Shown one piece after another: positions 13,506 to 17,756 of a DNA stretch of 64,000 bases. The translations under genes were made by a program, and so were the position numbers. How positions within the stretch are numbered: position 1 is the stretch's first letter; every line of letters begins with the position of its first letter. The stretch comes from an uncultured Bacilli bacterium. Lineage in GTDB: Bacteria > Bacillota_I > Bacilli_A > RF39 > UBA660. The stretch is taken from the NCBI GenBank assembly GCA_944332475.1, contig CALVKA010000005.1:1-64000 (forward strand), given 5' to 3'. A model generated the notes under the pieces. The model was given only the letters and a program-made list of their open reading frames with translations, had not been told where the DNA came from and made no database searches.

Positions 13506-14261
13506 ATGAAGGCATTAATTACAGGAGCATCATCAGGTATTGGTCTAGATATGGCAAGATATCTAGCAACAAAAAAATACGAACTAATCTTAGTCGCAAG
13601 AGATAGAGAAAAGCTAGAGAGTATCCAAGAAGCCCTACCAACAAAAGTAACAATCATTGTGGCTGATTTATCGAATGAACAAAAAGTAAAAGAATTGTAT
13701 ATATTAACGAAAAAAGAAAATGTTGACATTTTAATCAACAATGCAGGATTTGGAATGTATGGAGATTTTACTACTACAGATTTACAACAAGAATTAGATA
13801 TGATTGATACGAATATTAAGGCAGTTCATATTTTAACAAAAGCATTTTTAAAAGATATGGAAAAAAGGAATTCAGGTTATATATTAAATGTATCTTCATC
13901 TGCAGCTTTCCAACCAGGTCCATTGATGAGTACTTACTATGCCACAAAATCCTATGTATACCAACTATCAGAAGCTTTATGGTATGAACAAAAGAAGAAA
14001 AAGACAAATGTTCAAATTTCTGTATTATGTCCAGGACCAGTAGATACAAACTTTAATACGAGAGCAGGTGTGAAATTCTCTGTAAAACCATTAAAAAGTA
14101 CCTATGTTGCTAAATACGCAATTGATCAAATGATGGAAAAAAAGAAAATGCTAATTATACCAGGTTTTAAAATGAAGTGTGCTAAATTTTTTGGTAGATT
14201 TGTATCAGACAAGTTTTTATTACGTTGCGCATATAGAATACAAAAGAAAAAGGCCAGATAA
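13506..14261 (+). CDS. SDR family oxidoreductase
   Basis: Classical short-chain dehydrogenase/reductase, 251 aa. The cofactor motif is TGASSGIG (residues 6-13), followed by NNAGFGMYG, then catalytic Ser in NVSSSAAF and YYATKSY with the Tyr-x-x-x-Lys pair. CPGPVDTNF is also typical. The C-terminal tail is Lys-rich. These features fit the DltE/YqjQ-like group of broad-specificity NAD(P)-dependent enzymes; the substrate cannot be read. A TATAAT at 13463 suggests its own promoter. Confidence 0.9.
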   Translation: MKALITGASSGIGLDMARYLATKKYELILVARDREKLESIQEALPTKVTIIVADLSNEQKVKELYILTKKENVDILINNAGFGMYGDFTTTDLQQELDMIDTNIKAVHILTKAFLKDMEKRNSGYILNVSSSAAFQPGPLMSTYYATKSYVYQLSEALWYEQKKKKTNVQISVLCPGPVDTNFNTRAGVKFSVKPLKSTYVAKYAIDQMMEKKKMLIIPGFKMKCAKFFGRFVSDKFLLRCAYRIQKKKAR

Positions 14262-14315: not shown

Positions 14316-15113
14316 ATGAAAGAATTATTAAGTGTTACAAATTTAAGCTATCTAAACTTATTTGATAATATCTCCTTCCAAATAGATTCAGGAAAATTTA
14401 TCATGATATCAGGGCCAAATAATTGTGGGAAAACAACATTAATTAGAATATTAAGCGGACAAATTCCAGTGACAAAATCGATAAAACTATTGGGAATGTT
14501 TTTAGAAGAATATCCACAGAATCTGTGGAAAGAAATTACAGGCATGATTATTCCTCAAGACAACCCAACATTTTTCTTTTCGACGATAGAAGAAGAACTG
14601 AATTATAGTATCCATTTATTTAAAAAGACAGAGGAAGAAAAAAAAGAAACTTACAAAGAAATTATTAGAAAGTATAAACTGACAAAATTTCAAAAGAAAA
14701 ATCCAAACGAAGTATCCGAATTTATTAAAATAAAATTGTTATTAGCAGAAAAAATGTTAGCATCTCCACAAATTCTATTTTTAGATGATATTTGTGGAGA
14801 GCTAGAAGAAAAAGAAAAAAAAGAAATGATTAACTTATTAAGAACACTACAACTAGAAACTAATATTTCTATTGTTATGACGACATCGGATTTAAATGTT
14901 GCTTTAGAAAGTGATTATTTGTATATCGTAGATGAAAAACAAATTTTATTAGAAGGGGAACCATTATCTATTATAGAAAAGGATAATGTATTAAATAAAA
15001 TAGGCCTAGAGTTACCATTTATGATAGATTTATCAGTTAAATTAAGAGATTATAACGTAGTAGATAAAGTAGAATTAGATATGGACAGGATGGTGGACAC
15101 AATATGGAAATAA
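14316..15113 (+). CDS. EcfA-like ABC ATPase, Walker A intact, signature lost
   Basis: ABC ATPase domain, 265 aa, at the genomic place of ecfA1 (rplQ ... truA). Walker A is intact (GPNNCGKTT, about residues 31-39), and the Q-loop PQDNPTFFFSTIEEELNY resembles EcfA proteins. The LSGGQ signature is replaced by VSEFI; Walker B reads ILFLDD, so the catalytic Glu is Asp; the H-loop His is Ser (MTTSDLN); the D-loop GLD is GEL. It overlaps the next ATPase gene by 10 bases. No EcfT transmembrane gene follows. Probably a nucleotide-binding partner of the next protein, not a self-sufficient ATPase. Confidence 0.85.
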   Translation: MKELLSVTNLSYLNLFDNISFQIDSGKFIMISGPNNCGKTTLIRILSGQIPVTKSIKLLGMFLEEYPQNLWKEITGMIIPQDNPTFFFSTIEEELNYSIHLFKKTEEEKKETYKEIIRKYKLTKFQKKNPNEVSEFIKIKLLLAEKMLASPQILFLDDICGELEEKEKKEMINLLRTLQLETNISIVMTTSDLNVALESDYLYIVDEKQILLEGEPLSIIEKDNVLNKIGLELPFMIDLSVKLRDYNVVDKVELDMDRMVDTIWK

Positions 15114-15895
15114 TATTTGAAAATATCAAGAGTAATGATTGGGAATTTTCTACCACGTTAACAGGAGAAGATATTATAGGTGTTACAGGTCCAGAGTATG
15201 AAGAATTATTAGAAGTTTTAAGATTAGAAAAAATTCCAGAAGGAAAAATTATCATAGATCAAACAGAACTAATCCCTGAAAATCATTTAGAATATTACAA
15301 AAAAATAAGTAAAGTAGAAAATAAGTTTCATAAAATTAACTATTTAAATACAATAAAAGAACATATGGATTATATGATACAATACTACCATTTACAAATA
15401 AAAAACATTGAAAAAAAAGAAAAAGATTCATTAAAAATTGTAGGACTAGATAGTAGTCTTTTGGATAGAAATATTACCAGTTTATCTAATTCAGAAAGAA
15501 AAAAAGTACAAATTGCTATTAGCTTATTATCGAATCCAGATATGATAATATTATCTGATCCATTTCGTGGACTAGATATGAAAAGTACAAAAAAACTTAT
15601 GATGGTATTTAACAAATTAAAAGACCAATTTCAAAAAATCATTGTAGTTGGAACGAATAATCCGGATATTCTTTATCAATATACAACAAAAGTTTTATTT
15701 GTTAAAAATAAAAGAATCTTTTTAGAAGCAAAAACAGAAGAAGGATATGAAAGAGTAGACTATTTAAAGAGAAATGGTTTTTGTTTACCTGATAGAGTAC
15801 TTTTTACTTATAAAGCAATCAAACGAAAAAAAGTAAAGATTGATTATCATAAGGATATTAGAGATATCATCAAAGATGTTTATAAGCATGTATAA
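15104..15895 (+). CDS. EcfA-like ABC ATPase, Walker A lost, signature kept
   Basis: ABC ATPase fold, 263 aa, at the place of ecfA2. The Walker A region reads GVTGPEYEELLEVL with no GKS/T, so it should not bind ATP by itself. The signature LSNSERKKVQIAISLL and the D-loop RGLD are kept. Walker B reads MIILSDP in place of LDEP, and the H-loop has Asn (GTNNPD). Its losses are the mirror image of the upstream paralogue, so the pair could form one composite ATP site. It lies 18 bases before truA. Confidence 0.82.
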   Translation: MEIIFENIKSNDWEFSTTLTGEDIIGVTGPEYEELLEVLRLEKIPEGKIIIDQTELIPENHLEYYKKISKVENKFHKINYLNTIKEHMDYMIQYYHLQIKNIEKKEKDSLKIVGLDSSLLDRNITSLSNSERKKVQIAISLLSNPDMIILSDPFRGLDMKSTKKLMMVFNKLKDQFQKIIVVGTNNPDILYQYTTKVLFVKNKRIFLEAKTEEGYERVDYLKRNGFCLPDRVLFTYKAIKRKKVKIDYHKDIRDIIKDVYKHV

Positions 15896-15913: not shown

Positions 15914-16666
15914 ATGCGTTATTTAATAACAGTATCATACGATGGAACAAACTATAAAGGATATCAAACACAGCCAGGTTTATTAACCATTCAAGAACAG
16001 ATTGAAAATGCTTTAACAAAAATCAACAATGGCAAAAAAACCTCTTTTACCTCATCAGGTAGAACAGATAGAGGAGTTCATGCCAAAATGCAATGTGGAC
16101 ATGCTGACATTGATGTAAATATTACAGAGTATAAGTTAAAAAGAGCCATGAACAGCAATTTGCCAGATGATATTCATGTGATAAAAACAGAAAAAGTAAA
16201 TAGTGATTTTCATGCTCGATATAATGTAATAGAAAAGACATATGAATACTATATAAATATAGGAGAGTATAATCCCATAGAAAGAAATTATGTATTTCAA
16301 TACAACTATCCATTAAATGTAGAAAAAATGCAAGAAGCAATAAAATATTTAATAGGAGAACATGATTTCAGATCTTTTGTAACAGAAAATAGAGAGAAAG
16401 AAAACTGTATTAGAACAATTTCCACAGCTACAGTGGAAAAAACAAATCAAGATATTATTAAATTTACATTTACTGGAAATGGTTTTTTAAGATATCAGAT
16501 AAGAAATATGGTTGGTATATTGATTAGGATAGGAGAAGAAAAAGAATCACCAGAATTTGTAAAAATATTTTTAGAAAGAAAAGATAGATCCAAAGGAGGA
16601 AAAACAGCTCCAGCAGAGGGACTCTATCTAACAAACATTAAATATAAGGATAAAGAAACAGTCTAA
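15914..16666 (+). CDS. truA: tRNA pseudouridine(38-40) synthase TruA
   Basis: TruA, 250 aa, makes pseudouridine at positions 38-40 of the tRNA anticodon arm. The catalytic Asp is in SSGRTDRGVHAKMQ. YDGTNYKGYQTQP, the N-terminal signature, and GNGFLRYQIRNMVG near the end are present. It ends the ABC-ABC-truA unit and is followed by a terminator. Position between an ecf-like locus and rplM matches Bacillus. Confidence 0.96.
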   Translation: MRYLITVSYDGTNYKGYQTQPGLLTIQEQIENALTKINNGKKTSFTSSGRTDRGVHAKMQCGHADIDVNITEYKLKRAMNSNLPDDIHVIKTEKVNSDFHARYNVIEKTYEYYINIGEYNPIERNYVFQYNYPLNVEKMQEAIKYLIGEHDFRSFVTENREKENCIRTISTATVEKTNQDIIKFTFTGNGFLRYQIRNMVGILIRIGEEKESPEFVKIFLERKDRSKGGKTAPAEGLYLTNIKYKDKETV

Positions 16667-16754: not shown

Positions 16755-17756
16755 ATGGATAGAGTAACTGGCGCTATCCAAGAAAAATTAAGAAGATTAA
16801 AATATAATTACCAACTATTATTTCACCCAGAAAAAATTGAAATACCAGAAGGATTATCAAAAAAGGATAGAGAAAAAAGGGTAAGACAGATTTATTTAGA
16901 TAAAGCAAAATTACATCAACGCTTAGGGGCAAAACAATTTCAGAAATTTATTAGGAAATTTGACTCATACAAATATAAATTTATAAAAAAAGTAATTGGA
17001 GAAGAAAGAGTACTAAAATATTCAGACGCAAGTATTGAAAAATGGGGAGACCAACAATTAAAAAAAGTCAAATCCCCAGAAGAACAGCAAAAGATAATGG
17101 AAGAAATGAAACGAGCAAAGATACAAGTAAGAAACCAGTTAAAAGAAGAAAGAAGTTCTAATTATTGGTTAGGAGTAGATAGAAGAATAGTAGAGTTTCC
17201 TAAGTATCTGATAAGCAACAAACGTATTCATCAAGCGTGTTTAGTAAGGAATGGAATAATTCTAGGTGGTTGTATGATTGGCTCTTTCTTTGGCTTACCA
17301 TTAGTACCTTTAGTGGTTCTTGGTGGTTATCAAATTATTGCAGGTTTTAAAAACTTACAGTGCATCAACAACCAAGAATATGGTTTGGCAAGGTATAAAG
17401 CTATGGAAAAAGCAATTGTAAAAAGAAACATGCGTCAGATGAAAAAGGAACATGATGAAAACCAAGATTTAATTAAAGATATCAGGAGAGCTAGAGAAGC
17501 TGGAAAAAGTCTAGATAACCTTGATGACATATTAAACTGTCTAACAACAATAGAATCAGTAAAACAATTTAGGAAATTGCTAGTTCAAGGAATACAACCT
17601 GGTATGGTCGTAAATTTGCAATCTCAGAACTTAGAAGCAAGTCAGCTTAAGATGGAACATTCACTACCAAGAGAAACAGATAAAACGTTAGAAGAACTAA
17701 TTGCACCACCACTAAATCAGACAGAGGAAAAACCTGCAGTAGCAGTAAAAAAATAG
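16755..17756 (+). CDS. Unknown membrane-associated protein, 333 aa
   Basis: I do not recognise the family. The N-terminal 160 residues are highly charged and helical (Lys/Glu/Arg-rich). A glycine-rich hydrophobic hairpin follows at about residues 169-200 (GIILGGCMIGSFFGLPLV, then VVLGGYQIIAG), and a second charged helical half ends with a Pro/Glu tail. A consensus promoter lies upstream and GGGGG upstream of the ATG. It is 12 bases from the next gene and co-transcribed with it. The strong promoter and its place between truA and rplM suggest steady expression; function unknown. Confidence 0.75.
   Translation: MDRVTGAIQEKLRRLKYNYQLLFHPEKIEIPEGLSKKDREKRVRQIYLDKAKLHQRLGAKQFQKFIRKFDSYKYKFIKKVIGEERVLKYSDASIEKWGDQQLKKVKSPEEQQKIMEEMKRAKIQVRNQLKEERSSNYWLGVDRRIVEFPKYLISNKRIHQACLVRNGIILGGCMIGSFFGLPLVPLVVLGGYQIIAGFKNLQCINNQEYGLARYKAMEKAIVKRNMRQMKKEHDENQDLIKDIRRAREAGKSLDNLDDILNCLTTIESVKQFRKLLVQGIQPGMVVNLQSQNLEASQLKMEHSLPRETDKTLEELIAPPLNQTEEKPAVAVKK

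Follow-up and report, generated by a model that had tools for sequence, protein, structure and literature searches.

Two adjacent genes of an uncultured Bacilli bacterium (GTDB order RF39, family UBA660), here called A1 and A2, encode homologues of the ECF ATPases EcfA1 and EcfA2 in a genome in which searches detect no EcfT. We suggest, with a probability of roughly 55%, that they were the motor of an ECF vitamin importer, since lost, and have turned into a heterodimeric pseudo-ATPase scaffold, the C-terminal domains (CTDs) of which serve a partner outside transport. The window analysed is a stretch of 64,000 nucleotides (contig CALVKA010000005.1); the genome holding it is 1.43 Mb in size and 95% complete. 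The host order has been described as uncultured, genome-reduced gut bacteria (PMC13155120; PMC7301438).

Genomic setting and identity of the gene pair

The gene order at the locus is rpsM-rpsK-rpoA-rplQ-SDR-A1-A2-truA-...-rplM-rpsI. The ancestral order is ecfA1-ecfA2-ecfT-truA (PMC8046335), and the pair occupies the ecfA1-ecfA2 position next to truA, with ecfT itself gone (Table 1). The two genes overlap by 10 nt, stop codon included, and this overlap is kept in 14/14 other congeners checked. An earlier note, made from the letters of the window, had described two adjacent EcfA-like ATPases at this position without an EcfT, and the reading frames, the family matches and the searches for EcfT all agree with that description.

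The best family match of A1 is TIGR04520/PRK13635 (7e-35 and 5.8e-35; 121 bits), that of A2 is TIGR04521 (2.7e-25; 89 bits), and neither reaches the equivalog cut-offs of about 315-390. The predicted ABC folds are confident (mean pLDDT 91 for A1 and 88 for A2), and the nearest solved structures found by Foldseek for both models are ECF/CbiO ATPases. By homology and fold, A1 and A2 are homologues of EcfA1 and EcfA2.

A short-chain dehydrogenase (SDR) gene lies between rplQ and A1 in many members of the family. It is more constrained than truA (median dN/dS 0.051 versus 0.087), and it can adjoin truA where the A1-A2 pair has been wholly lost (G065, G103, G137). Between truA and rplM there is a 333-aa ORF without a Pfam match; within the genus only some loci have such an ORF, its size ranging from about 310 to 453 aa.

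Table 1. Features of the A1-A2 locus (positions in the window; pN/pS values are those of the genus)
Feature	Position	Strand	Remark
SDR gene	13506-14261
A1, EcfA1-derived pseudo-ATPase, 265 aa	14316-15113	+	Walker half of the single retained composite ATP site
A1 Walker A, residues 33-43 (GPNNCGKTTLI)	14412-14444	+	retained site; pN/pS 0.071
A1 former signature, residues 132-142	14709-14741	+	abandoned site; pN/pS 0.312
A1 Walker B, residues 153-158 (ILFLDD)	14772-14789	+	retained site; pN/pS 0.052
A1 CTD, residues 216-265 (...LPFMIDLSVKLRDYNVVDK...MVDTIWK)	14961-15110	+	most conserved part of A1 family-wide
A2, EcfA2-derived pseudo-ATPase, 263 aa	15104-15895	+	signature half of the retained site
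A2 former Walker A, residues 27-38	15182-15217	+	abandoned site; Lys lost
A2 signature, residues 126-134, LSNSE type	15479-15505	+	retained site
A2 CTD, residues 206-263, basic tail YHKDIRDIIKDVYKHV	15719-15892	+	tail pN/pS 0.084
truA	15914-16666	+	begins 19 bp past A2, at the place of ecfT in the ancestral Bacilli order
333-aa ORF	16755-17756

Motifs and selection within the genus

A1 has kept its Walker A motif (SGPNNCGKTTL), and its signature position reads NEVSEFIK instead of LSGGQ, as the earlier note had pointed out. The losses of the catalytic Glu and of the H-loop His that it had claimed are also seen here, with the refinement that the Glu of A1 has become an Asp (Asp158 in ILFLDD); the H-loop of A1 reads TTSD, with Ser in place of His, and that of A2 reads GTNN. 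For A2, the former Walker A reads TGPEYEELL and has lost its Lys. The claim of a lost Walker A and a kept signature stands to this extent, but the signature is of a reduced LSxSE form rather than LSGGQ, and in the window genome the Walker B Asp has gone too (IILSDP), although it is still there in most congeners. An ABC ATPase with two competent sites has Walker A/B, LSGGQ, the catalytic Glu and the H-loop His in each subunit, a set that A1 and A2 do not share. They have the properties of a pseudo-ATPase: catalytic residues have disappeared, yet purifying selection acts on the fold.

The pair was found in 14 of the 15 congeners, with identities of 74-84% to A1 and 68-78% to A2, and the motif pattern is kept in all 14; the only congener without it is a genome that is 68% complete. 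Median dN/dS over the whole gene is 0.125 for A1 and 0.138 for A2, compared with 0.087 for truA and 0.088 for adk. Regional values, which are pN/pS ratios of summed counts without saturation correction, reach 0.31-0.43 at the lost motifs, namely the A1 signature, the A2 Walker B (0.347) and both H-loops (0.41-0.43). A1 and A2 are under purifying selection within the genus, and this is strongest at the retained site. A pseudogene or an assembly artefact is ruled out by intact frames in 15 species with a dN/dS of about 0.13.

Loss of EcfT

No match to EcfT (CbiQ, PF02361) was obtained in the 95%-complete genome or in any of its 15 congeners, and PF02361 is present in 23/23 genomes sampled from other families within the class. 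A profile built from EcfT remnants likewise gave no match in the window genome and the nine congeners searched. Among the genus members covered by these empty searches, relocation of EcfT to another place is disfavoured; in particular, the window genome yielded no EcfT of the kind that, paired with ordinary EcfA proteins, would have marked A1 and A2 as decaying copies in the terms of the earlier note. The S-component families PF12822 and PF07155 have no match in the window genome. S-components are not missing throughout the family, because an EcfT-less relative, G163, has a PF12822 match (5e-16).

The locus was collected from 112 further genomes, in 109 of which the pair is adjacent, giving with the window genome a set of 110. 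EcfT is present in 39 of these, absent from 53, and a remnant or partial in 18, a class that includes one case of contig-end truncation with intact ATPases (G344). The remnants are 189-233 aa long (L305, and the gaps between A2 and truA of L085, L125, L129, L130, L132, L146, L159 and L181). They keep membrane helices, and several retain a stretch like (L/I)RFYN..KRTY.E and start with MCINM; the one that was tested has no Pfam match.

A pair that still drives a transporter, the membrane subunit of which has been replaced or escapes recognition and is encoded at another locus, is improbable. Because remnants are very divergent in some lineages, to the point of lacking a Pfam match in the tested case, a displaced remnant could be missed, and remnants still have a stretch similar to the last coupling helix and last transmembrane helix. 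Against such a transporter stand the remnant profile, empty in the window genome and nine congeners, the count of 0/16 for PF02361 in the genus, and the lack of an S-component by two families in the window genome. The catalytic Glu and His are also missing, and a real module is inactivated by Glu-to-Gln mutation (PMC10368641).

On a TruA tree of 123 genomes, which is a single-gene tree with unsure deep branches, the EcfT-bearing state requires 9 changes, at least 5 of them forced by well-supported branches. These changes are read as losses because EcfT is ancestral. EcfT thus appears to have been lost several times, and the remnants would represent lineages caught in transit.

Asymmetric erosion of the two ATP sites

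When the genus of the window genome was counted once, 39 EcfT-less representatives were obtained; most of the genomes are metagenome assemblies. Site A, composed of Walker A and B of A1 and the signature of A2, is complete in 38/39 of these representatives, and the opposite site B in 5/39, while the catalytic Glu of A1 is present in 3/39 and its H-loop His in 1/39. Among the EcfT-bearing genomes, site A is complete in 38/39, site B in 33/39, and the Glu and His of A1 are found in 30/39 and 24/39. The single ATP site that the earlier note proposed from one genome is therefore retained across EcfT-less lineages, and the random degeneration of motifs in relatives that would have spoken against it did not occur, the losses being systematic. 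Random decay is ruled out by the asymmetry of 38/39 versus 5/39. A Fisher test of this asymmetry gives p of about 2e-15, a value that overstates the significance because related genomes are counted as independent; the repeated losses are the safer argument.

Over all 53 EcfT-less genomes, the Walker A Lys and Walker B Asp of A1 are kept without exception (53/53), and the LSxSE residues of A2 are Leu in 52, Ser in 49 and Glu in 52. At the catalytic position of A1, Asp is found in 39 genomes, Asn in 9 and Glu in 3. The signature of A1 is already lost in some members that still have EcfT (G018, G021, G017, G083), and erosion therefore starts in EcfT-bearing members.

The earlier note had seen in the single site a possible sensor or switch, a claim that finds no support in the form in which it was made. 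An ATP-dependent switch or energy sensor, the site of which binds and slowly hydrolyses ATP while opening and closing of the dimer signals to a partner, is unlikely, and less likely than a scaffold; such a mechanism would depend on turnover or on regulated exchange, and A1-A2 lack the catalytic residues for it. One site is indeed strongly constrained (pN/pS 0.05-0.07), the A1 Q-loop segment is partly conserved in the genus (0.124), and an Asp is also found at the position of the catalytic Glu in degenerate sites of heterodimeric ABC exporters. However, Glu and His of A1 have been lost in nearly all EcfT-less lineages, with Asn as the replacement in 9/53, the H-loops are free to vary, and the pair persists in shortened relatives after the ATP pocket has vanished.

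Conservation of the C-terminal domains

As a reference for the CTDs, 18 ECF ATPase pairs were taken from families of the class other than the host family. Because the sets differ in phylogenetic depth, the values are safe to read only as CTD relative to core inside one set: the mean pairwise identity of the A1 CTD is 28% in the other Bacilli versus 47-62% elsewhere in the protein, 50% versus 39-46% in EcfT-bearing members, 50% versus 19-33% in EcfT-less members, and 39% versus 9-22% in the short forms. For the A2 CTD, the corresponding values are 23% versus 50-66% in the other Bacilli and 40% versus 23-41% in EcfT-less members; it reaches 51% in EcfT-bearing members and 27% in the more reduced relatives, where other regions of A1 and A2 lie at 9-26%. 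In the EcfT-less sets, the region of A2 from signature to H-loop and the CTD are conserved to a similar degree, and the inversion is therefore clean for A1 and partial for A2. Judged by sequence identity, the CTDs are the least conserved part of ordinary EcfA proteins, whereas in the host family they rank first or joint first in conservation.

In the reduced relatives, the lengths fall to about 150-280 aa for A1 and about 180-263 aa for A2. Walker A is missing from the A1 proteins of G134, G082, G022, G035 and G131, yet the LWK-like and IYR-like ends stay. Profiles of the two CTDs each have matches in 129/146 genomes of the order, that of A1 in ORFs as short as 152 aa. Both CTDs are found in 128/146 genomes and neither in 16/146; two genomes are discordant, and in one of them, G198, the A2 match lies close to the start of a contig. 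As expected for partners in a heterodimer, A1 and A2 are co-retained or co-lost (144/146 concordant) and their genes overlap (14/14). Covariation between A1 and A2, measured as mutual information, is weak and of little informative value, with 6 CTD-CTD pairs in the top 50 where about 2 are expected.

The A2 CTD is acidic in the other Bacilli sampled and basic on average throughout the family, EcfT-bearing members included. Its mean net charge is -4.5 in the other Bacilli, +2.7 in EcfT-bearing members and +3.5 in EcfT-less members.

Slow decay would make the pair a functionless relic of the importer, kept for a time because it lies in a ribosomal-protein operon or is translationally coupled to truA. 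The group is genome-reduced, a graded series leads from the intact locus via EcfT remnants to EcfT-less, shortened and absent pairs, and the A1 CTD is missing from 17/146 genomes, all of which would fit such a relic. We nevertheless regard it as quite unlikely, since full-length open frames with a dN/dS of about 0.13 are found in 15 species, constraint is concentrated at one ATP site and the CTDs, and identical residues survive in separate EcfT-less lineages. In addition, the CTDs stay while the front half is deleted, which leaves an A1 of about 155 aa, and both partners are retained and lost together.

A putative scaffold derived from a transport motor

In the scaffold that we favour, A1 and A2 would form a 1:1 heterodimer, which in the genus would be pinned shut by one bound ATP that is hydrolysed not at all or very slowly. 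The dimer would present its joined CTDs (the ...LWK end of A1 and the basic ...IYKHV end of A2) to a non-transport partner; an acidic or nucleic-acid partner is possible for the CTD of A2. ATP turnover is unlikely because hardly any EcfT-less lineage has kept the catalytic Glu and H-loop His of A1. When Glu is changed to Gln in a real ECF module, ATP hydrolysis is no longer detectable, and a module with both subunits mutated closes around bound Mg-ATP (PMC10368641). The task of the CTDs is probably older than the loss of EcfT, because EcfT-bearing members already have conserved CTDs and a basic A2 tail. The ATP pin may have become dispensable in the shortened relatives: because the CTDs outlast the ATP pocket there, the ATP site looks like an aid, and the CTD heterodimer like the selected function.

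Counting against a function, the pair is missing from 16-17 of the 146 genomes and is therefore dispensable in some lineages. The steady decay of the motor could mean that the remaining function is also fading. A wider and more tentative version of the scaffold reading, for which we would not quite claim even odds, is that the EcfA pair of this order gained a second, non-transport task for its CTDs before EcfT was lost, and that several lineages then shed the importer, the motor eroding in a fixed order. The outcome might be a new class of soluble EcfA-derived scaffolds, ATP-pinned or finally nucleotide-free.

Comparison with known systems

Degenerate ABC sites and pseudo-ATPases are already known; the new point is the conservation and persistence of the CTDs. 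No prior description of EcfT-less EcfA pairs, let alone of pairs that erode in the same order in separate lineages while conservation shifts towards the CTDs, was found in the open literature, coverage of which is incomplete. Present-day genomes display a series from the intact importer through a divergent EcfT, loss of EcfT, loss of one ATP site and complete loss of the ATP site to the remaining CTDs, and this series is that of a transport motor turning into a pseudoenzyme. The series suggests, for a large group of gut bacteria, a role of ECF ATPases that goes beyond EcfT; the CTDs are the place to look for it. Annotation by similarity would label A1 and A2 as vitamin-transporter ATPases, and the organisms would be wrongly credited with ECF uptake.

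The pair resembles EcfA1/EcfA2 (CbiO) of group II ECF transporters in ancestry, gene order, the presence of two adjacent genes with C-terminal helical domains, and fold (Foldseek TM about 0.8 to 8BMS, 6ZG3 and 4MKI). In contrast to these ATPases, A1-A2 have no detected EcfT or S-component, one of the two ATP sites is destroyed, and Glu and His are lost. Their strongly conserved C-terminal ends and basic A2 tail also set them apart from the other Bacilli EcfA proteins sampled.

TM287/288, TAP and CFTR are heterodimeric ABC proteins with one degenerate site, where Asp typically replaces Glu. They share with A1-A2 two unequal composite sites, but they keep the Glu at the consensus site as well as their transmembrane domains, whereas the surviving site of A1-A2 has neither Glu nor His and there is no membrane domain.

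The ECF-GatC association in Mycoplasma suggests that ECF components can have non-transport partners in reduced Bacilli (PMC13047044). It differs from the present case in having an EcfT and in a partner that docks in the manner of an S-component, and it is a prediction with cross-link support (PMC13047044). A further counterpart is the catalytically dead ECF module 2EQ (PDB 8BMS; PMC10368641). This module is engineered, contains EcfT and keeps intact Walker and signature motifs at both of its ATP sites, unlike A1-A2. It is nevertheless a Glu-less EcfA pair that binds Mg-ATP and closes without turnover, and as such provides a laboratory model for the scaffold proposed here.
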